From Deltaproteobacteria bacterium (GTDB taxonomy: Bacteria; Bdellovibrionota; JACOXK01; 2-02-FULL-40-11), in NCBI GenBank assembly GCA_023248265.1, contig JAHFEZ010000001.1, forward strand, positions 25,411 through 61,567: a stretch of 36,157 nt of DNA, in the 5' to 3' direction. The notes under the pieces are model-generated. The model made no database searches, had not been told where the DNA came from, and saw only the letters and a program-made list of their open reading frames with translations. The translations under genes and the position numbers were made by a program. Shown piece after piece: positions 1,032 through 22,793 of this stretch. Each line of letters starts with the position of its first letter. The first letter of the stretch is position 1.

Positions 1032-1083
1032 AGGGACGTACCCTATTTAAAATAAATAAATAGGGTACGTCCCTATTTATTTA
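1032..1083. repeat. Palindromic repeat element, copy 1 (AGGGACGTACCCTATTTA...TAAATAGGGTACGTCCCT)
   Basis: Perfect 18-bp inverted repeat 1032-1049 / 1057-1074. A competing hairpin TAAATAAATAGGG-TACGT-CCCTATTTATTTA spans 1053-1083. The core TAAATAGGGTACGTCCCTATTTA recurs at about 5191-5213. Confidence 0.85.
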
Positions 1084-1503
1084 CTTAAGTTCTTCATTTA
1101 AGTTTTTTGAGAGGGGGTGGAATTTAAAATAGGTTTTGAAGTCCCCTTTACAAACAGTCAGGCTTTCTTTCAAATGATAGAGCTGAACTTGGAGCATGGG
1201 GTCACATTTGGATTGAACCCTCTGTGTCGATGGATGGCGTGCTTTTTCTTCTAACAAAGCTGATAAAAATGAGGTTTCAAACACATGATAGCGCTCCTTT
1301 GAAATCTTTTGTTTTTTGATGAGCTTATTGTTTTGAAACTGTTTTACTTCGTATTTTTTAGTTATTTCTAACCTTTGGCTTTTAAAATGCGGGGCCCACC
1401 TAAATTCCTCAAAAGAAAATAAGAGCGCTTCTTTTTGGGGAGATTTACTCCAACCAGGAGCATTTAAAAGCAAAATGGCAAGAATTAAAAGTGTCTTTTT
1501 CAT
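1081..1503 (-). CDS. Small secreted protein of unknown function (140 aa)
   Basis: Signal peptide MKKTLLILAILLLNAPGWS; start overlaps the stop of the upstream gene (ATGA-type overlap at 1500-1503). Confidence 0.75.
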   Translation of the reverse strand: MKKTLLILAILLLNAPGWSKSPQKEALLFSFEEFRWAPHFKSQRLEITKKYEVKQFQNNKLIKKQKISKERYHVFETSFLSALLEEKARHPSTQRVQSKCDPMLQVQLYHLKESLTVCKGDFKTYFKFHPLSKNLNEELK

Positions 1504-3446
1504 TGTACTACTCCATCAAGAGTACATTCGGAAAATTTATATTTTTTATTCTGATCACACCCCAAATGTTCTCGAATTTTAGAATTAGCTCCAAAAATAC
1601 CATTCACCCTGAGCGTTTCTTCAAGATGGCTATCTTCAAAATCCTCTCGTCGCATGGACTTATAAAGCTCCTCCTTCTCGGCTTCACAATAAAATCTTGC
1701 CATATTCAGTGTGGCTTGTTTTCTTTGTTCCTTGGGATAAAAAAGTTCAATCACTCGACCCATCACTTGAGAAGACAACCAATCTGCTGTTGTTTCCTCT
1801 TCTTGCCCTTCTTGTAATCCTACAGAGTCAGCTCGTCTTAAGCACCCCACCAATTTCTTGTAGGTGGCTCTAAGATCATAGCCATTGGCCTGACTACTTT
1901 CATAACTAATCTTGTGGCCCAGTTCATGTGCTAAGACTTCCATGACAGACAAAGGATTTCTCTCACTTAAAAGAGTAATGGCTGGCAAGATATTAACGGC
2001 CTCTTCTAACTCTAACTCTCCTTGCTGAGTGGGCAAATTATAATGCGCATTCAATGCCCTTAAATATTCTAAGTCAGGGTCTTGAAAACTTTGTATCATT
2101 TCATCTTGCGGTGGCACTTTTTCAAAATCTAAAACAGGGACAGCAAACCCTTCTTTTGTTTTATAAAGATCGGCAGAAGGTTTTTGGGGCCAACGCAATT
2201 TTAAAGATTTAAGCCCTTGCTTCATCTTTTGATATTTATCAGAGCCCTTCAATTCTGGCTTTGATCCAAACGTATCTTCCACAACTTCTAGAAGGGTTCC
2301 ATGGACTTGATCATACAGCGCTTGAACTCGCGTTCTTTGGGTCTCAGAAAAAGTTTGATCCATCAAGGCCTCAACTGTAGGTTTTGCTGCACTTAAATTT
2401 TTAAAAAATAAGTTTCGATAATTCTGAAGTGCATCCCGCGCTTGATCTGTGTAACTATAGCAAGCTTTCCGAGTCATATTGAATATAAATCTTACTTTTC
2501 TTTTAGCTTTTTCTAAGGAAGAGGCCGCTGCCTCCTCCTTCCCCATATCTTTTTCAACTTGATATGAAATCAACTCCACCAAGACAGCTAATTCTTTGGT
2601 AATAAATGCCGTTTTTGCTTTCTCTCCTTCTGGAGAATCTTTTTTTCTCAAAACATCCATCAAACGAGAACGCATTTGATACCGATACGCTTCAGAACAC
2701 GCAGTCGGTAAAGTAGCTGAATCACTCAAATTACTAGAATTGTTTTGCATATTTTCACACGTATTTACAATATCACTATAAAGCTGAACCACATTATCTT
2801 GATACCAAGCTGATTTTTTATTAAAAAATACTAAAGGAGCATCTTTATATTTTTTATAAAGCTTCTCATACAAAGGAATTGTCGCTTCTTCTCCCCCTTG
2901 CTCAGGAATAATATTCAAATCTTCTCTCAAATCATCACCCACCTCATAACAAAGCTCTGGAATATTTTTAAAATAAGCAAAAAAACTTTTGGAAGGCCAT
3001 GCTTTACCTAATAACTCCTGCTTTAACTCTTCAGATAAATCAGGCTTGACCTCCAGTCCCTTTTCTCCCAAATAATCAAAATAGGCTTTTTCAAGAGAGG
3101 GCTTTCCTAAAGCATGAATGGTTGCATCGTAAGCTGAATTTACTGTCCTATCTATATCCTCCTGAAGCTGAAAGTGTTCATCCACTTTTGCATTGGATTT
3201 TAAACAGGCTGCCCCAAACAGATCCTCACAGGCATTTGAAAATCCTTCAGCTTGAATCTGAAGAGGACAGTCATTAAAAATATGATGGACACGCTCTTCG
3301 ATTTCTTGAGAAAGACGGCCTGCATCTTGGGCAGCTTTTTTGAGATCTTTTTCCTCTTGCGCAAAAAGAAAACCACTCATCAAAAGAAAGGGGATCACCC
3401 CTATTATAAAGTGTCCCCTTTTCCCTTTTTTCAATGAAGTTATCAT
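1500..3446 (-). CDS. Secreted gluzincin-type zinc metallopeptidase candidate (648 aa)
   Basis: N-terminal hydrophobic signal (HFIIGVIPFLLMSGFLFAQ); SVMEVLAHELGHKISYE (HExxH, codons at 1914-1928) followed downstream by EETTADW (ExxxD). Confidence 0.75.
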   Translation of the reverse strand: MITSLKKGKRGHFIIGVIPFLLMSGFLFAQEEKDLKKAAQDAGRLSQEIEERVHHIFNDCPLQIQAEGFSNACEDLFGAACLKSNAKVDEHFQLQEDIDRTVNSAYDATIHALGKPSLEKAYFDYLGEKGLEVKPDLSEELKQELLGKAWPSKSFFAYFKNIPELCYEVGDDLREDLNIIPEQGGEEATIPLYEKLYKKYKDAPLVFFNKKSAWYQDNVVQLYSDIVNTCENMQNNSSNLSDSATLPTACSEAYRYQMRSRLMDVLRKKDSPEGEKAKTAFITKELAVLVELISYQVEKDMGKEEAAASSLEKAKRKVRFIFNMTRKACYSYTDQARDALQNYRNLFFKNLSAAKPTVEALMDQTFSETQRTRVQALYDQVHGTLLEVVEDTFGSKPELKGSDKYQKMKQGLKSLKLRWPQKPSADLYKTKEGFAVPVLDFEKVPPQDEMIQSFQDPDLEYLRALNAHYNLPTQQGELELEEAVNILPAITLLSERNPLSVMEVLAHELGHKISYESSQANGYDLRATYKKLVGCLRRADSVGLQEGQEEETTADWLSSQVMGRVIELFYPKEQRKQATLNMARFYCEAEKEELYKSMRREDFEDSHLEETLRVNGIFGANSKIREHLGCDQNKKYKFSECTLDGVVQ

Positions 3447-3450
3447 CTCA

Positions 3451-4713
3451 CTACTGAGAGTTTCGTCTAAAGACTACTCCTTGGTTAACCCACCGTTGAT
3501 CTCGGGCATGATAATACCCAGACCACACTTCAGCATCCGGAGTGATCCCCAGCATGTAGAAAACAGGTCTCTCATTTAAGGCTGTCACAGATAGCGTAGC
3601 AAGATCAACTGGCAACACCATGCCTCTGGATTGCCACGCCCCTCCAAGAATAGACTGCAATCCTCCATGGCCATCTTGATAATAATAGGCAATGCCTCGA
3701 TGGGTACTTCCGTCAGCTCGAATATCTTTATATTTCCCAATAATGTGGGCCTGAGGCACAGTTCCATACGAAAAACCATGGAGTTCATCGTGCATCAAAT
3801 TGGGCTGTTGATTCGGACGTGCATTATTGTCAAAGAGAAGATTCCACCCACTATTTGTCGCTGCAAGAGATCTCCCCTGCAAAGGATGGCGTGCCAAACT
3901 CAAAGTAATATAATTTTGCTTGAAAAAAGCCAAATCTACACCTTGTGAAGAGCGAAACACTGTAAAATCCCCTGTCTCAAAATTTTGAGGAAGTTCAGTT
4001 CTGGCCATTTGAAACGTCAAAGATTGCTGTACTTGCTCCTCGGGAGAAAGTTTATAATCGACCACGCGACTATAATCTTGATCCCACCGTTTTACACCGA
4101 AGAGATGGATATTATTGGCTGCATCAGCAACACATTGCATGGAATGGCCCATGTGATCTGCTAAGGGAGATGCAAGAAGTTTCACTTTATAATTACCTTG
4201 CGGTGTATAGCGAACATAAATAAGCCGATCATCCAATCCCTGAGGTGTCGCTTGAAACGTTTGGACGAAGATATGATAATTTTTTGCATCATCTTGACAT
4301 GCTGTCATGACATCGGCCGTGGTGTTGGCCAAAGATGACGCACGAAAATGCAAACTTTGAATACTCGCGATGTAATCTGTCAGCTCACGAAACACGCCTC
4401 GGGCATGCCAGTTTGCGTTGGTATCTTGCCATCCATACCAAAGCCCCATTTTGCTATTCTCTGAAAATTGAGCATTTTTTAAATGCCCTTTTCGAATAGC
4501 AAAAGCAACGTGGGCTGCATTGCCTGTCCCAGGCAAAATCGCCACATCTTGGAAATAGCTCCACTCATATGGATCTGGCATAGTCACAGCTGTTGCTGTG
4601 GGTTGCGTGGTCACCACTCTATATGCCCTTTCTTCAGCATTCCCATGGGAAACACCTAAAAAAGAGACAAAAAAACTAACCCCTAAAATAGTCATGAGAT
4701 ACTTGAGTTTCAT
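3451..4713 (-). CDS. Secreted protein, possibly beta-propeller (420 aa)
   Basis: Signal peptide MKLKYLMTILGVSFFVSFLGVSHGNA; recurring blade-like strands (AAHVAFAIRKG, NYHIFVQTF, NIHLFGVKRW, GVDLAFFKQN, RPVFYMLGIT); RBS AAGGGGGGGAATATG. Confidence 0.65.
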   Translation of the reverse strand: MKLKYLMTILGVSFFVSFLGVSHGNAEERAYRVVTTQPTATAVTMPDPYEWSYFQDVAILPGTGNAAHVAFAIRKGHLKNAQFSENSKMGLWYGWQDTNANWHARGVFRELTDYIASIQSLHFRASSLANTTADVMTACQDDAKNYHIFVQTFQATPQGLDDRLIYVRYTPQGNYKVKLLASPLADHMGHSMQCVADAANNIHLFGVKRWDQDYSRVVDYKLSPEEQVQQSLTFQMARTELPQNFETGDFTVFRSSQGVDLAFFKQNYITLSLARHPLQGRSLAATNSGWNLLFDNNARPNQQPNLMHDELHGFSYGTVPQAHIIGKYKDIRADGSTHRGIAYYYQDGHGGLQSILGGAWQSRGMVLPVDLATLSVTALNERPVFYMLGITPDAEVWSGYYHARDQRWVNQGVVFRRNSQ

Positions 4714-4727
4714 ATTCCCCCCCTTTT

Positions 4728-5099
4728 TTATAAGAAAAACTGATACCCTTTAACGATTTTTGGCATGCCTCTCTCCTGCGTCCACCAAATCAGGACACTT
4801 CTACATCGTGTTAAAAGCAATGAAAATGCCTCTGCCTCACTGAGGCTTGAGGTCGTAAAATATATGCTATCATTGCCAGCATTAAAGGTTGTTGTATAAT
4901 CATTATTTTCTGCAGCTTTTCCAACTGTGACTGAACTAATTTCTTCTCTGCGAAAATTTTTCATGTTTTGAGTGTTGTGATTTGAACTTTGACTCGCAGC
5001 ACCCATCCCTGAAGACCTTTTCATCATCTCTTGTCGAGCATCCAAAGCCTGTAGAAGCAACATATTCACCAATAAAACACCTAAAATAATTTTCTTCAT
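4728..5099 (-). CDS. Small secreted protein of unknown function (123 aa)
   Basis: Signal peptide MKKIILGVLLVNMLLLQALDA; RBS AAAGGGGGGAACATG; 14 nt upstream of the next gene in the same orientation. Confidence 0.65.
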   Translation of the reverse strand: MKKIILGVLLVNMLLLQALDARQEMMKRSSGMGAASQSSNHNTQNMKNFRREEISSVTVGKAAENNDYTTTFNAGNDSIYFTTSSLSEAEAFSLLLTRCRSVLIWWTQERGMPKIVKGYQFFL

Positions 5100-5185
5100 G
5101 TTCCCCCCTTTTGAAAAAACGTTCTACTGAGTATACCTTCTATTATATCCATTATTGGAATTAAAAAAAGTAAATTTAGGATTTT

Positions 5186-5218
5186 GGTAATAAATAGGGT
5201 ACGTCCCTATTTATTACC
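5186..5218. repeat. Palindromic repeat element, copy 2
   Basis: Perfect 14-bp stem GGTAATAAATAGGG / CCCTATTTATTACC with loop TACGT; same core as the 1053-1083 hairpin. Confidence 0.85.
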
Positions 5219-5283
5219 CTATTTTTCTAATGAGAACTTTAATGAGAAACTATACATGCCGATAAGAAGAGAGGAGATTCGAT

Positions 5284-5691
5284 ATGCCTTCTTATTTAAA
5301 AGGAAGCCTCTTAGGAAGTCTTATAATGTTCTTGGTAATTTTTCTGGGGCTTGCAACTTTCTGTGTTCAAGCTCAAGAGAGTCTTTACCCTTTAAAATGT
5401 GGCACATATCTTGTAACCGCCTTTGTGCAAAAAAGTACGAACCAAAACATGGAGCTTGGTGTAGCCAAAGGCACTGAAGCCCAAACCACATTAGACATAG
5501 CTTTCTCAAAAAAGATGCTTCCCAAAACATTTTTAGAATCTAAAAATATTTTTGTCACAGGAAAATTAAAACTCACACATCAAAAACATCCCTATGCTTT
5601 ACAAGGCACGTGGCTTTCTCTTCCCATGGTTGAAAAATATCGAAAAAGGGATTTTGTCACACTTAAGAAAGTAGAGCCATGCGAAAAATAG
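5284..5691 (+). CDS. Small secreted/membrane-anchored protein of unknown function (135 aa)
   Basis: N-terminal hydrophobic segment LLGSLIMFLVIFLGLATFCVQAQ; 3' end overlaps the start of the caspase-like gene. Confidence 0.7.
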   Translation: MPSYLKGSLLGSLIMFLVIFLGLATFCVQAQESLYPLKCGTYLVTAFVQKSTNQNMELGVAKGTEAQTTLDIAFSKKMLPKTFLESKNIFVTGKLKLTHQKHPYALQGTWLSLPMVEKYRKRDFVTLKKVEPCEK

Positions 5692-7157
5692 CTATTCTAT
5701 TTATTTTACTGATTGCCTGTTTCCAACCTTTGCAAGGATTGTGCAGAAATTTTGCTATCATTGCCGGGGGCACCCACGAGCCTCTCCCTGATAGCCCTTA
5801 TTCTCATAATATCTTTTCTCATAGTATGGGTGAATGGAGCCGAACATTAAAGGAAAGAAATTGGGATGTGTCTGTTTTATTTGATGGGGTCCAATACCTT
5901 GAAGACTGGAATGAATTTCACCGAGATGTAAGACCCTTAGATCAGAACACGATGGCCCAAGCCTCCTTTACCAAAGATAACCTCACTTCCAAAATAAATA
6001 AACTTCTAGAGCAGCACTTAACATCTGAAGACCAAGTAGAGCTTTCTATTTCTGCTCATGGCTCTGTACGTCATGACCAGTTTGGCATCAAAACAGAAAA
6101 TGGCAACATGGAAGCCGACAATTTAAAAGCAATATTAGAAAAACTTTTAGAAACAGGGGCCCGCGTACACATCAATTTAGACTCTTGCTACAGTGGCCAA
6201 TTTATTAAAAATGCTACAGATCTCCTCCGTCATCCTTCCTATGCAGACAAACTTTGTATTACAACACAGGCTTCTCAAGACGCTGAAGGTCAAGTCGAAG
6301 ATTCCATCCTTGCAGGTATGTCTAATTTTATAAATTTAGGACACACTCAAAATACATCTGCAGAAGAGTTGTTTTTGAAAGCACGTCGGCACCGCCCCTC
6401 ACTGACAGAAGATTTTTTAAGAGCTATCTACGAAAAGAAATTTTATCAAATTTCTTCTTTCCCCGAGTGGATGGACGGCCCCCTGCATCACACAGAAGCC
6501 ATTCTTTCCCTCCCGGATGTTGAGCAGCCTCGAGAAGTCACACAAACAGTGTGCTCTTTAGAACCCGATCTTTTCGAAGATATTCAAAACCGCATTCGAC
6601 CGGTTGCAGATATTTTTTCTCAGCTCACCAAAAAGTCTCTGAATGACCTCACCGCTCAAGAGCGTCTTCAAATAATATGTTCCAAAGACTATCAAGATCG
6701 CCTTTCCAATCGCTATTTTGACCAAAAAGATGCGTTTGAACATCGCTACGATCTTCCCCATAGTGCCATACTTTCTTCTGAAGCCTCTCAAGCCTTCTTA
6801 ACGCGCCGAAAAGATAAATGTACCTTAGACGGAAGTTCTTTTGCTTACCCCATCAAAGATAAAGAAGGAAATGTGTTGTGCCAGTTTGATACCGAAGAAT
6901 TACTGGCGTTTATCATCGATAACGAAACGCAGGATTCTAAAAAAACAACTCTCGTTACAAAAAATCTGTCTCAAGGACTGGGAGAAAAGAAACTCAATCA
7001 ACTGCTCGCGGACTACCGCCCCTTCTACACAGAATGGATGGAAGGACAGTGCGATGCCATTCGACTCTATGCCTTAGAACACGAACTTTTTGAAGAAAGC
7101 TACCGAAGATTACCTCAGACCTCCAACAAACGCGCCTGCCAAGAATTTCACTTTTAA
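5679..7157 (+). CDS. Secreted caspase-fold (clan CD) cysteine peptidase (492 aa)
   Basis: Signal peptide MRKIAILFILLIACFQPLQG; strand plus catalytic His VELSISAHGS (His codon 6057-6059); catalytic Cys VHINLDSCYSGQF (Cys codon 6186-6188); H-C spacing 43 residues. Confidence 0.8.
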   Translation: MRKIAILFILLIACFQPLQGLCRNFAIIAGGTHEPLPDSPYSHNIFSHSMGEWSRTLKERNWDVSVLFDGVQYLEDWNEFHRDVRPLDQNTMAQASFTKDNLTSKINKLLEQHLTSEDQVELSISAHGSVRHDQFGIKTENGNMEADNLKAILEKLLETGARVHINLDSCYSGQFIKNATDLLRHPSYADKLCITTQASQDAEGQVEDSILAGMSNFINLGHTQNTSAEELFLKARRHRPSLTEDFLRAIYEKKFYQISSFPEWMDGPLHHTEAILSLPDVEQPREVTQTVCSLEPDLFEDIQNRIRPVADIFSQLTKKSLNDLTAQERLQIICSKDYQDRLSNRYFDQKDAFEHRYDLPHSAILSSEASQAFLTRRKDKCTLDGSSFAYPIKDKEGNVLCQFDTEELLAFIIDNETQDSKKTTLVTKNLSQGLGEKKLNQLLADYRPFYTEWMEGQCDAIRLYALEHELFEESYRRLPQTSNKRACQEFHF

Positions 7158-7207: not shown

Positions 7208-7615
7208 ATGTCTGAATTTAAGGCTAAATTAGACATGTGCTGGCTTTCGAAAATAGCTGATTTCATTGAAGAAACAGCTAAAGCCATGGGGTGTAAAGAC
7301 TCCAATATCATCTATGATTTAAAGCTCGCTGTAGATGAGGCAAGCACCAATATCATGACACATGGCAAAAAAAGCCAAAGAAAAGATTACTTTATGATTC
7401 ACATGACCAAAGTAGGCAAAGAAATTGAAGTTGAAATTACGGATTTTGGAAAATCGTATCCCTTTGACCAAGTCAAACTTCCTCTTGAGAACTTACCTTT
7501 AGAGGAAAAACTAAAAAATGGATTTGGAATTGGACTGATCAAGAGCGTTACGGAGAAGGCGGAATATAAAAGTTTTCCAGACAAAAACGTACTTCGGTTT
7601 TACAAATATTTCTAA
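7208..7615 (+). CDS. RsbW/SpoIIAB-like serine-protein kinase (anti-sigma-factor family, GHKL ATPase)
   Basis: N-box LKLAVDEASTNIMTHG, G1 EVEITDFGKSYPF, G2 NGFGIGLIKSVTEKAEY; 135 aa. Confidence 0.9.
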   Translation: MSEFKAKLDMCWLSKIADFIEETAKAMGCKDSNIIYDLKLAVDEASTNIMTHGKKSQRKDYFMIHMTKVGKEIEVEITDFGKSYPFDQVKLPLENLPLEEKLKNGFGIGLIKSVTEKAEYKSFPDKNVLRFYKYF

Positions 7616-7662
7616 CAGGAATAGAACCCTGCTGTTGGCGGGGATGACAAGAGGGGGGAATT

Positions 7663-8034
7663 ATGGACATTCAAACAAAAAAAGCAGGCGAAGTTATCGT
7701 CTTAGAAATTGGGGGACGAATTGACGCGTTTACTTGTGAAAAACTAGAGTCAGAGCTTCATTCGATTATGAACGCAGGAAAACTCAAGTTCATTGTAAAT
7801 TTTGAAAAGGCAAACTACATCAGCAGCTCAGGACTGAGAGTCTTCTTGGGTGCATATAAAAAGCTTTCAGAAAACAAAGGCCAAATTAAATTTTCTAATA
7901 TGCCAGATCCTGTCCTCAAAGTTTTTGCACTGGCAGGCTTTGACAAAATTTTTGAGATTTATTCTACAGAAAAAGAAGCTTTGGAAGAATTTAACGAGAA
8001 GGTTGCTGAATCCAAAAAACAAAACTATGCCTGA
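7663..8034 (+). CDS. STAS-domain anti-sigma-factor antagonist (RsbV/SpoIIAA-like)
   Basis: VIVLEIGGRIDAFTCEKLE...FIVNFEKANYISSSGLRVFLGAYKKL; conserved Ser phospho-acceptor context; RBS GAGGGGGGAATTATG. Confidence 0.93.
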   Translation: MDIQTKKAGEVIVLEIGGRIDAFTCEKLESELHSIMNAGKLKFIVNFEKANYISSSGLRVFLGAYKKLSENKGQIKFSNMPDPVLKVFALAGFDKIFEIYSTEKEALEEFNEKVAESKKQNYA

Positions 8035-8854
8035 ATTTGCACCAAAACTTGGAAAATTATTTCGGATTTTTGAGAAACCTGGAGAACCGTCATTTACAGT
8101 CAGTGAACTAGAACTTGCCCGAGAAATCCAAGCACATCTTTTGCCTAAAGCTTTCCCCAGCGCAGACCACACCGAAATCGGAACTTTATATCAACCCTCT
8201 AAATACATTGGGGGAGACTTTTACGATGTCATTCAAATTGATGATAGAAAAATTGCTTTTGTCATTGGAGATGTGTCTGGAAAATCCTTACATGCGGCTC
8301 TTTTTATGACCCAATGCCTCACTCTTCTTAAAGTTTTTATTAAAATGGATCTCAATATTTTAAAAATTATTGAAAAAACAAACCAAATGCTTTTTGAACT
8401 GGCCAAAACAGATATGTTTGCCACTGTTTTTTTAGGCATCTATGACATACATTATCACCAGTTAAGTTATGTAAATGCAGGCCACAACCCTCCTTTGCTC
8501 ATGAGAACCTCTGTTGAAATTCCAGCCAAAGATTATCATCCCATGACGATGCTCACGGCCGAAGGCATGGCATTAAATTGCATTACCCACATGGTGTTAG
8601 AAGAAAAAAGAATTCAACTCTACGAGGGAGATATTCTTCTTTTGTATACAGATGGCCTCATTGAGGCTTGCAATGAATTTGAGGAAATTTTTGGGGAAGC
8701 CAAACTTAAAGGCTTGGTCACAGAACTCAAAGATCTTCCTTCTCAAGAAATGGCTCAAAAAATTTTAGAACGTATTCAAGGCTACTCTAAAAGCTCTCAA
8801 ATAGAACCTGATGATATGGCCGCCTTGGTCATTAAACTTAAGGAGGTAGCATGA
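8027..8854 (+). CDS. SpoIIE/RsbU-family PP2C serine phosphatase
   Basis: ELAREIQAHLLP, GGDFYDVI, VIGDVSGKS, YVNAGHNPPLL, LLYTDGLIEA, DDMAALVI. Start reassigned to ATG 8027 (residue 60 of the ORF-track entry), overlapping the STAS stop codon. Confidence 0.93.
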   Translation: MPEFAPKLGKLFRIFEKPGEPSFTVSELELAREIQAHLLPKAFPSADHTEIGTLYQPSKYIGGDFYDVIQIDDRKIAFVIGDVSGKSLHAALFMTQCLTLLKVFIKMDLNILKIIEKTNQMLFELAKTDMFATVFLGIYDIHYHQLSYVNAGHNPPLLMRTSVEIPAKDYHPMTMLTAEGMALNCITHMVLEEKRIQLYEGDILLLYTDGLIEACNEFEEIFGEAKLKGLVTELKDLPSQEMAQKILERIQGYSKSSQIEPDDMAALVIKLKEVA

Positions 8855-18330: not shown

Positions 18331-18832
18331 AGTCGTTCTCATTTACTCTGTCATGTCGGCACTGGCGCTGATGTGGATTTATCTGGCTGGTTTAGATGCC
18401 ACGCTTTTGGGAATCAAAGGAATTCCAGAGGCAACATTTTTGGCTTTCTTTTTATTTGTGGCCTCAGCTTTGCTAACCACGCACACTCCATGGGCGCAAA
18501 AGCTAGAAGAATTTTTTGCTCAAATTGTCACACCTTTATCACTCCCAGTTATTTTTCTCATGGCTCTGTGCAGCAGCGTGGGTGAAGAATTTTTTTTCCG
18601 AGGGGCAGTGCAAAATCAATTTGGCTTGATCCCAGCCAGCATTACTTTTGGCTGTGTTCATATTCCTTGGAATAAACTCATGATTCCTTGGACGCTCATG
18701 GCTATTTTCATGGGCTTTGTGTTAGGCGGACTGTATATCTATGCAGGAAATCTTTTGGCCCCCATTCTACTTCACTTTATGATTAACTTCCTAAACCTCT
18801 GGGCCATTAATCAAAAGTATAGTGTATTTTAA
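18299..18832 (+). CDS. CPBP-family intramembrane metalloprotease (Rce1/Abi-like)
   Basis: SSVGEEFFFRGAVQNQFG (EExxxR), FGCVHIPW, HFMINFLNLW; multiple TM segments. Confidence 0.88.
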   Translation: MKTSKRIELPKVVLIYSVMSALALMWIYLAGLDATLLGIKGIPEATFLAFFLFVASALLTTHTPWAQKLEEFFAQIVTPLSLPVIFLMALCSSVGEEFFFRGAVQNQFGLIPASITFGCVHIPWNKLMIPWTLMAIFMGFVLGGLYIYAGNLLAPILLHFMINFLNLWAINQKYSVF

Positions 18833-20037
18833 TGCGCCAAGCTAAGTTCTTGTGGGCTTTGTGGGCCTATCATGAAAGGACGCAATCGCTTGAGTAAATC
18901 TTGATGTTCGTAGCTCATGACAGGCGTAAGCCAAAAAGCGTGTGTTAAAAAAGCGCTTTCTTCAGGTGTCTGTGGTACGGATTCTTGGGACTCATATCTT
19001 TGAATCCACTCTTTTCGTTCTTTTTGTTTTTTCTCTACTTCTGCTTGTGGCCAAATTCTTCTTTCCCAGCTTAAAATCTCTTTTGCACACACCCTATCCG
19101 TACATATTTCATATAGAACGTGAGGAACTAAAACAACACCGGTTACTTCTTCAAACGTAGCGCCTCCATTTCTAAAATGATGAGCCTTAACTAATTCTTT
19201 TCTAACTTCTATTGGCATTTGAATAGGCTCAACCAAAAGTCGTTTGATCTCTTTATCTGATAGAGATCGATCCAGGCGGGCTGCAGCATCCTTTGGCCAT
19301 TCTTTCCCAGCATAAAAATTGGCAAGAGAAAGCTCTAAAATAGACGCACCCTTTTCTAAGAGGGTCCAGAGAGCTTCAGAAACTAACTTAGGGTGAGGAA
19401 TAAGTCTTTTTTCAGAGAGAAACTCTGGAAATTCAATAGGCACGATGGGACATGCGTTATCCGAAGAAATGACTTGAGAGCCCTCAAAACACCGACCCAT
19501 GGCTCCTGCGCAATTATTGCTTAGAAAGGTATAAGACCCCAGTTTTTGGGGGTGCACGGCCCAGTCAGAAACCAACGCAATCATTTTTTGCCGCATGTCG
19601 GAAGTTGTGGGAATAATATATCGCTCAAGAGTACGTCCTTCTAATCGAATGTAGGTATTCCAGACCTCTTGAAACGCTTGCACCATGGCCAGCGTAGGAT
19701 ATCCACCCACCAATCCCTTCCAAGCACTCAAATGAGGTTCTTCAACCAACGCTACAAATGACAAAACAAAATCATTCGTCCAATCAGAATCATCATCTAC
19801 AAAACGCACCAGCACATGCCCCCATCGACTATAGAGCGCACGTGTGGAGGCGGCAGCCACAATCAATTCAAGACCTATAATATGATTTTCTTTTTCTTTG
19901 AGAGCCGAAATATTTTTCTGATTTTGAGCAAGAAAAGCTTCTTGAATCTTTTCCCATCGTTCAATGGCTTGGGCATATACATTCGAGGATAGAAAGATAA
20001 GTAGCGCTACCACAGAGAAAGAGAGCTGCTTCAGCAT
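18829..20037 (-). CDS. DUF4105-like secreted protein (402 aa)
   Basis: Signal peptide MLKQLSFSVVALLIFLSSNVYA; LYSRWGHVLVRFVDDD, GGYPTLAMVQAF, YIIPTTSDMRQKM, YTFLSNNCAGAM match the DUF4105 layout. Confidence 0.65.
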   Translation of the reverse strand: MLKQLSFSVVALLIFLSSNVYAQAIERWEKIQEAFLAQNQKNISALKEKENHIIGLELIVAAASTRALYSRWGHVLVRFVDDDSDWTNDFVLSFVALVEEPHLSAWKGLVGGYPTLAMVQAFQEVWNTYIRLEGRTLERYIIPTTSDMRQKMIALVSDWAVHPQKLGSYTFLSNNCAGAMGRCFEGSQVISSDNACPIVPIEFPEFLSEKRLIPHPKLVSEALWTLLEKGASILELSLANFYAGKEWPKDAAARLDRSLSDKEIKRLLVEPIQMPIEVRKELVKAHHFRNGGATFEEVTGVVLVPHVLYEICTDRVCAKEILSWERRIWPQAEVEKKQKERKEWIQRYESQESVPQTPEESAFLTHAFWLTPVMSYEHQDLLKRLRPFMIGPQSPQELSLAH

Positions 20038-20061: not shown

Positions 20062-20646
20062 TTATTTTTCTTTTCTCTTTTCCTCTAAAAGAACCGATTT
20101 AAACTCATTGTAAGGGAGAGTTCGGTCATCTTTGCAAAACACTAACTGACTATCTTGTGCCAAAATAAAATCAGCAAGATTTTCAATGGCGCTAAATTTC
20201 TGATCGTCCACAAGGCTTCCATTCATCTCATTAAATAAAGCTCTAAGATAAAAACCATCTCCCATTTTTGCCTCTGCAAGAACATGCCACACTTGTTCAT
20301 AGGCCTGATTTCCTTGAGCCTCTGAAAGTGCGACGGATGTTCCTACTGTAGTAAACATAAAAGGCATAGCCAGGGCTGCTCCAGCTAAAATTGGATCACC
20401 TAAGATACCATAATAATACCACCCTGCTCCTGTAGATGAAAAAGTCGAAAGTACCCCTTCTGGCCTTGTAACAAAGTCTATAACCCTATCATTAACTTCT
20501 TCAGCTAAACTATATTTTTCTAGGATGTGCTTCTTAAAATAAAGATCTTCACAACTTTTTTGGATTTCTTTATCCTCAGAAAAAAGAGGCTGAGAATACG
20601 CAAGTCCCAAAAAAAGAAGGCCTAATATGTAAAATGATTTATTCAT
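20062..20646 (-). CDS. Secreted protein of unknown function (194 aa from preferred start)
   Basis: Preferred ATG 20646 (MNKSFYILGLLFLGLAYSQPLFS) preceded by AAGGAGATACATAT; ORF-track start at 20688 is upstream of this RBS. Confidence 0.65.
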   Translation of the reverse strand: MNKSFYILGLLFLGLAYSQPLFSEDKEIQKSCEDLYFKKHILEKYSLAEEVNDRVIDFVTRPEGVLSTFSSTGAGWYYYGILGDPILAGAALAMPFMFTTVGTSVALSEAQGNQAYEQVWHVLAEAKMGDGFYLRALFNEMNGSLVDDQKFSAIENLADFILAQDSQLVFCKDDRTLPYNEFKSVLLEEKRKEK

Positions 20647-20880
20647 ATATGTATCTCCTTTTCTCATATAAAAACATACCTGCCCCAATGTACTGCAAGC
20701 CCTATGCCAATGATTTTACGCAGGAAAATCACAGTTTCGGTCTGCCTAACCATTTAAAAAATGCACACTTAAAGCAAGAAAGATTTGATATGTGCCTGAT
20801 TTAGTTTGAATTTTATGTTTTTAACACTTTTAGGTACTCAGTGACATTTTTTGGCATGACAAAAACTCAGCCCTGTTTTT

Positions 20881-21369
20881 CTAAGGACGGAAAAATAATT
20901 TATCAGCACATGAAAAGCTGAATTTTTCTGGCTCACCCGGAGGATTCCATTTCCACATGATCGGTATCCAAAGAGTCATACCTTCTAGACTATTGACCGT
21001 CACTCCCCCTCGGTAGTTATTACTGGACAAAGTCATAAACGAAGATAGGTCAATTTTTATTTTTCCATTTTCCAAGAGTTCTAGCTTGGCAACAAATTCG
21101 CGATTTCTTCCATCCGTATCTATAAAATGAATCTCCCCATTTTCATTCATATGCTTTTCTGTCACCACCACAGTTTTACTTTTTTCTTCAATATATGAAT
21201 GATAGGTTACCTTGCATTGTCCATCTGAAATAAGTTTCTTTATATTTTCTGGAGCATGCACGGATCCATCTAAAAGTTCAAACTCGGCAAATGCCGGTGC
21301 AGAAATCAATACAGAAAATACAAAGTACAAACTAAAAGATACCTCTTTTTTAATATTTTTTATTATCAT
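20881..21369 (-). CDS. Secreted protein of unknown function (162 aa)
   Basis: MIIKNIKKEVSFSLYFVFSVLISAPAFAEFELLDG signal peptide; RBS AAAAGGAGTACGCGATG. Confidence 0.65.
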   Translation of the reverse strand: MIIKNIKKEVSFSLYFVFSVLISAPAFAEFELLDGSVHAPENIKKLISDGQCKVTYHSYIEEKSKTVVVTEKHMNENGEIHFIDTDGRNREFVAKLELLENGKIKIDLSSFMTLSSNNYRGGVTVNSLEGMTLWIPIMWKWNPPGEPEKFSFSCADKLFFRP

Positions 21370-21770: not shown

Positions 21771-22793
21771 GTGAATGAATTGGTGAAATTAAAAGATAGT
21801 CAGTTGTTAGAAAAGTTTTCGGTCTTGGTGAGACAAGAACGAGAAATTGTTTCTGAGGTGATTGTTCATTTATCTGAAATTGATCGAAGAAAGCTCTATG
21901 CCGGTGAAGGTTATTCGTCCTTGTTTAGTTATTGTGTAGAAAAATATCATTATTCTGAATCAGAAGCTTTTTTAAGAATACAAGCTTCCAGGCTTTCTCA
22001 AAGCTTTCCTGAAGTTTTAAAACTTTTGAGAGAAGGCAGATTAACTTTGACAACCCTCAAGATGATTTCTCCTTATCTCACCCAAGAAAATAAAAATGTA
22101 GTTTTTGAAAAAATCCAACAAAAATCAAAACGAGACATTGAACAGGTATTAGCCGATCTTTTTCCTCAAGAAGAAGAAATCTTAGATAGTATTAGAAACC
22201 TACCTCTACCTAAAGAAGTACAATCTGCACAAAATTTAACTCGTTCCGGAACGAGTACTTTGAGTAAAATAAGGGCAAAAGGAGTTGTAAAGCCCATCAC
22301 CTCTCAAAGAGTAAAGATTGAGCTCAGTGCTTCAGAAAGTTTAGCTAAAAAGATTCAGAGAGCCAAAGAACTGCTCAAGCATAAATATCCCGAAGGAAAG
22401 CTGGAAGATATTTTAAATGAAGCTCTTGAGCTGTTTCTCGAGAAGAAAGATCCAGAGAGAAAGATTCTAAAACAAGAAAAAAAAGAGATTCTTCGAACGG
22501 AGCCTGCCCCCGCGAAGGAGGGGGGCTCTCAGAATGCCACCCAAAACAAAACCCGATACATTCCCCAAGAAATGAAGCTGCAAGTTTGGAAGAGAGATGA
22601 GGGACAGTGTAGATATGAAAGTTCAGCAGGCAGAAGATGTGAGGAAAGGGCTGGGCTAGAGCTGGATCATATTGAACCGTTTGCGCTGGGTGGAAATTCT
22701 ACACCGGAAAATCTAAGATTGCTCTGTAGAGTCCACAATCAGTGGAGAGCAGAAAAAACTTTTGGGAAAAATTTTAGCGCTTTTTCATTTTGA
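21771..22793 (+). CDS. HNH endonuclease-domain protein (340 aa)
   Basis: GTG start after AGGAGG; C-terminal CRYESSAGRRCEERAGLELDHIEPFALGGNSTPENLRLLCRVHNQWRAEK (HNH); helical N-terminal region. Confidence 0.85.
   Translation: MNELVKLKDSQLLEKFSVLVRQEREIVSEVIVHLSEIDRRKLYAGEGYSSLFSYCVEKYHYSESEAFLRIQASRLSQSFPEVLKLLREGRLTLTTLKMISPYLTQENKNVVFEKIQQKSKRDIEQVLADLFPQEEEILDSIRNLPLPKEVQSAQNLTRSGTSTLSKIRAKGVVKPITSQRVKIELSASESLAKKIQRAKELLKHKYPEGKLEDILNEALELFLEKKDPERKILKQEKKEILRTEPAPAKEGGSQNATQNKTRYIPQEMKLQVWKRDEGQCRYESSAGRRCEERAGLELDHIEPFALGGNSTPENLRLLCRVHNQWRAEKTFGKNFSAFSF

Follow-up and report, generated by a model that had tools for sequence, protein, structure and literature searches.

The gene cluster at positions 1081–7157 of the window (the whole 36,157-nucleotide stretch that was analysed) consists of two independent protease-partner cassettes that lie side by side in this genus. 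Each of its two apparently exported proteases, the caspase-like P0006 and the neprilysin-like P0002, has its own dedicated small exported partner, P0005 and P0001 respectively. This pairing is strongly conserved, and the natural units of the locus are therefore P0005–P0006 and P0002–P0001. Both pairs are found again in numerous relatives, which points to the partners as built-in protease inhibitors (or folding helpers), and we lean towards a reading in which each exported protease would be restrained by the product of its overlapping partner gene, an inhibitor or safety catch, in two separate cassettes.

The six ORFs have the coordinates, strands, lengths and divergent layout that the first-pass annotation had given them. 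The minus strand carries P0004 (4728–5099, 123 aa), P0003 (3451–4713, 420 aa), P0002 (1500–3446, 648 aa) and P0001 (1081–1503, 140 aa), separated by gaps of 14, 4 and –4 nt, while on the plus strand P0005 (5284–5691, 135 aa) and P0006 (5679–7157, 492 aa) overlap by 13 nt. By inspection all six begin with signal-peptide-like starts, consisting of a basic n-region and a hydrophobic stretch, and the N-terminal start of both P0005 and P0001 is a helix in their AF2 models. Pfam and NCBIfam returned nothing above cut-off for any of the six proteins, and families A7, A8 and A9 gave chance or sub-threshold matches only. The window's genome is incomplete (1.16 Mb, 62% complete), and our genome-wide distribution searches covered 291 genomes, all within the host phylum.

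The first hint of pairing came from two distant genomes in which P0005 homologues lie upstream of, and overlap, P0006 homologues. Genome-wide, the P0005 family profile matches in 60 of the 291 genomes, and a caspase-family gene is adjacent in 49 of 50 fetched P0005-family loci, the remaining one being cut off by a contig end. Among 63 distinct pairs the protease comes first in 38 and the partner in 25, and the two genes mostly overlap, by 4–22 nt. For the metallopeptidase, small exported ORFs overlap the 3′ end of P0002 homologues (by 4 nt for P0002–P0001). The P0001 family profile yields 45 matches at E<1e-12, about 16 of them outside the alignment behind the profile, and 44 adjoin an M13-like match by coordinates; the lone unpaired match starts at base 1 of its contig. 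An M13-like ORF stands beside the partner in all 30 fetched P0001-family loci, 29 of which were scored by script; the other (L193) was missed by it, as its ORF call runs long.

Partner sequences are very poorly conserved. With leave-one-out scoring at a within-locus threshold of E<1e-4, partners were recognised at 31 of 42 caspase loci. For the M13-like family the figures were 14 of 24 among loci of the long or other type and 20 of 30 among those of the short type, so that a recognised partner is absent at about a third of the M13-like loci under this scoring. As controls, neither partner profile found anything at canonical M13 loci (0/8 with each), and swapping the partner profiles gave 0/54 and 0/29. 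Partner and protease distances correlate with a Mantel r of 0.77, a value expected from joint inheritance alone.

The sequence of P0006 places it in clan CD, as a caspase/legumain-like cysteine peptidase with intact catalytic residues. The caspase-type motifs are present, namely the HG at residues 127–128 (catalytic His127 and Gly128, 6057–6062, plus strand) and the SCxxG at residues 169–173, within the DSCYSG around catalytic Cys170 (6180–6197, plus strand); they give the His-Gly plus Ser-Cys-x-x-Gly type of dyad of the clan. An alignment of 28 homologues shows no variation at H127, G128, C170, G173 or the C-terminal C487. The best PDB profile matches of the family are metacaspase-1 (4f6o, E=0.0027), metacaspase-4 and GSU0716, and Peptidase_C13 (PF01650) matches P0006 at E=3.5e-4 with 20.6 bits, under its 22.8-bit gathering score, and 4 of the 28 homologues at E<0.01. 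What P0006 has in common with metacaspases (C14) and legumains (C13) is thus the HG...SCxxG catalytic dyad region; in contrast to them it is exported, possesses a distinct C-terminal region with a conserved PCxxF-type motif at its end, and comes with a dedicated partner gene.

P0002 is by its sequence an exported neprilysin-like gluzincin, the long form of a divergent M13-like zinc metallopeptidase family rather than a filed M13 member. The HELGH...ExxxD signature noted on first inspection is genuine: the HELGH zinc site occupies codons 507–511 (1914–1928, minus strand) and the ExxxD, with E551 and D555, codons 551–555 (1782–1796, minus strand), followed by H607-x5-R613 (1608–1628, minus strand). 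Because these motifs are invariant in 17 long P0002 homologues, as those of P0006 are in its 28, they do not reflect chance. The full set of invariant residues comprises C73, C81, N466, A467, Y469, H507, E508, H511, C535, E551, D555, C587, H607, R613, C630 and C641.

M13 enzymes are described by the motifs HExxH, ENxxD and VNAxx (PMC4701951). The 17 long homologues all have the HExxH. The second motif is kept as ExxxD, not as ENxxD, the residue after the glutamate being T in P0002 and variable in its homologues; from the third, N466, A467 and, one residue on, Y469 are invariant and the preceding V is not. PF01431 gave no match above cut-off for P0002 or 10 relatives and finds separate canonical M13 genes only. 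We call the family divergent M13-like because it does not keep the ENxxD Asn or the VNAxx Val and has no PF01431 match. Its relation to M13 is nevertheless close in profile comparisons: hhalign of the P0002 family against seven canonical M13 enzymes of the same phylum gave probabilities of 97–98% (E of 1.7e-11 and 3.9e-14, each for a single comparison). In these alignments the zinc site is matched, as are the glutamate of the ExxxD and the His, Arg and Cys of the C-terminus. The invariant His607 and Arg613 fall on the conserved His and Arg of the canonical enzymes, and the six invariant cysteines are partly aligned to theirs. The two best PDB profile matches of the family are M13 enzymes, ECE-1 and another, the long set alone (A6) performing worse in this search than set A1. 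Compared with neprilysin, ECE-1, PepO and Zmp1, P0002 therefore has HExxH, ExxxD, NAxY, the C-terminal His/Arg and six Cys at matching places; it differs from M13 in the absent Asn of ENxxD, the missing Pfam M13 match, the partner gene and the existence of a short form. Long and short forms together make the family present in 161 of the 291 genomes. The short forms (~370 aa; L046–L075) are without the large helical region of neprilysin and keep all catalytic residues, and many of them have a lipobox-like partner.

The two partners differ in predicted fold. The AF2 model of P0005 (mean pLDDT 88) is a predicted OB-fold, and its top Foldseek matches are OB-folds, among them the protease inhibitor potempin A, which ranks 4th, 8th and 31st with probabilities of 0.97–0.99. 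This match (TM about 0.4, rmsd about 9) is a lead, not proof, as the OB-fold is generic and RPA and SSB proteins score equally well. A PDB sequence search with P0005 found no relative. P0001, with C100 and C118 invariant in its family alignment (n=29), is predicted to fold as beta4-alpha-beta2-alpha (mean pLDDT likewise 88) and resembles no known inhibitor in Foldseek, the PDB sequence search giving nothing useful. Its best Foldseek matches are to Mago nashi at a TM of about 0.45 which, being <0.5, we treated as an analogy only.

From the gene pairing we infer that the overlapping genes of each cassette would be co-translated and that the partner would bind and restrain its own protease in the producer's envelope, the enzyme then acting only once it has been released or diluted outside the cell. 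By analogy with known protease-inhibitor gene pairs, inhibition is the most likely step for both partners. The gene linkage fits a chaperone or a subunit equally well. The main rival, which we consider rather unlikely, is that the partners are folding chaperones or activators that aid periplasmic folding or maturation and are then released. Overlapping genes and near-constant linkage would be in keeping with such assistants, and this role has been suggested for staphostatin (PMC3462683). However, 38 of the 63 caspase pairs have the partner gene downstream, an uncommon order if the product is a helper that must be available first, and canonical M13 enzymes of the same phylum do without a partner. 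It is less probable still that the partners are permanent subunits or anchors setting substrate choice or membrane attachment. Several partners of short M13-like forms have a lipobox-like Cys after the hydrophobic stretch, which could tether the complex, and the OB-fold is a common binding module, but by inspection there is no clear lipobox in P0001 or P0005, and the very low conservation of the partners is more in keeping with an inhibitor that changes quickly than with a subunit for recognition.

The first-pass annotation had seen the six genes as a single co-regulated module, a reading that we rejected on the neighbourhood data, as the two protease families are apart across the 291 genomes of the phylum. 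Its further suggestion, an extracellular module with one protease processing the other or the small partners, is very improbable and largely refuted. In its favour, the arms are adjacent in the window's genome and probably also in a sister MAG; against it, each protease is accompanied across the phylum by its own partner, and the other protease is not next door. The check proposed for that module, co-occurrence of the arms in related genomes, largely fails for the arms as a unit and comes out strongly positive for the pairs within the arms. Of the small ORFs, P0001 and P0005 form families across the phylum and P0004 has no convincing homologue.

Of the 291 genomes, only that of the window and, most likely, one sister MAG have the two cassettes next to each other, and where both protease families are on one listed contig they lie 67–88 kb apart (G172, G073). 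The sister genome (G002) has a similar layout, except for an HNH-type ORF at the P0004 position. There P0005 is split over two contig ends (C97 and C198) that encode the same stretch and differ at several bases, so that two strains may be their source; that these contigs join is likely, not proven. In the third genome of the genus (G001, 71% complete) P0003 is kept, and the gene directly after it encodes the ABC ATPase that is otherwise located beyond P0001. This genome yielded no P0002, P0001, P0005 or P0006, the P0002/P0001 pair thus being missing as a unit.

The other two genes of the minus arm have a narrower distribution. P0003, which is exported, multicopy in the genus and of unassigned fold, has no Pfam, NCBIfam or PDB relative and matches only in the three genomes of the genus among 144 searched. 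Paralogues of P0003 occur elsewhere in the sister genome (L038, L039), one of them (L039) split into two ORFs. P0004 is an orphan ORF and a doubtful member of the locus: searches of 20 relatives gave no homologue below E = 0.02, and the sister genomes have none. For this reason, and because an HNH-type ORF occupies its position in the sister MAG, P0004 may be spurious or of recent origin. The window has an HNH-type ORF of its own (21771–22793) that resembles the ORF at the sister's P0004 position (L035, 13472–14455), as if this gene were mobile or multicopy.

A search for a sigma-70-like promoter in the divergent intergenic region (5100–5283) found none. This region contains the palindrome AAATAGGGTACGTCCCTATTT (5186–5218, plus strand), and a second palindrome with the same core lies at the 3′ end of the minus arm (1032–1074, plus strand). 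The core, AGGGTACGTCCCTATTT, has three sites in the window's genome, two of them bracketing the minus arm (P0001–P0004) and the third (L228, about 1735–1755) lying between signal-peptidase-II-like and isoleucyl-tRNA-synthetase-like genes. On the other side, 50 nt downstream of P0006, are HATPase_c_2, STAS and SpoIIE genes (a partner-switch set, 7208–8854) and an RND-type efflux set. The order from P0005–P0006 through HATPase_c_2/STAS/SpoIIE to the RND-type set is kept in the sister contig L036, and it may be in this neighbourhood that the plus arm is really transcribed. Further along the window, an Lnb_N domain protein (18829–20037) lies beside two small family-less exported ORFs (20062–20688 and 20881–21369).

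Small inhibitors encoded next to their proteases have precedents in other bacteria. Potempins are encoded directly before the KLIKK proteases of Tannerella forsythia (PMC7296668), staphostatin-like inhibitors on either side of C10 proteases (PMC3462683), and emfourin, a small 1:1 inhibitor, in one operon with the metalloprotease protealysin (PMC9505478). The potempin-KLIKK arrangement, in which the gene of a small exported inhibitor lies directly beside that of its own exported protease, has the layout of our pairs; P0005–P0006 differs in its clan CD cysteine peptidase as the putative target, in the lack of sequence similarity and in occurring in both gene orders. Staphostatin-staphopain, SpeB-Spi and the Bacteroides C10 pairs are all cysteine proteases co-transcribed with a small inhibitor, whose gene comes before or after that of the enzyme, but these proteases are papain-fold (C10, C47) whereas the P0006 family is caspase-like, and staphostatin is a barrel while P0005 is a predicted OB-fold. 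The emfourin-protealysin pair is like P0002–P0001 in joining a metalloprotease with a small partner gene; protealysin is an intracellular M4 enzyme, whereas P0002 is M13-like and exported, and no sequence link between emfourin and P0001 was found. A literature search on caspase-like or M13 peptidases in Bdellovibrio found nothing relevant among the papers covered.

Few protein inhibitors are known for enzymes of the caspase-fold and neprilysin types, and such inhibitors are useful. We propose tentatively, as something that may well prove otherwise, that P0005 and P0001 could represent two unrelated, previously undescribed families of exported inhibitors, with caspase-like and neprilysin-like targets, each inherited with its enzyme across one phylum and serving as self-protection for enzymes released onto other cells. 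The linkage is strong enough that a bench test would be cheap and decisive. If the partners do inhibit, they would provide dozens of ready enzyme-inhibitor pairs for study, supply families missing from Pfam and NCBIfam, and extend the principle of a protease with its own inhibitor to two new protease types.
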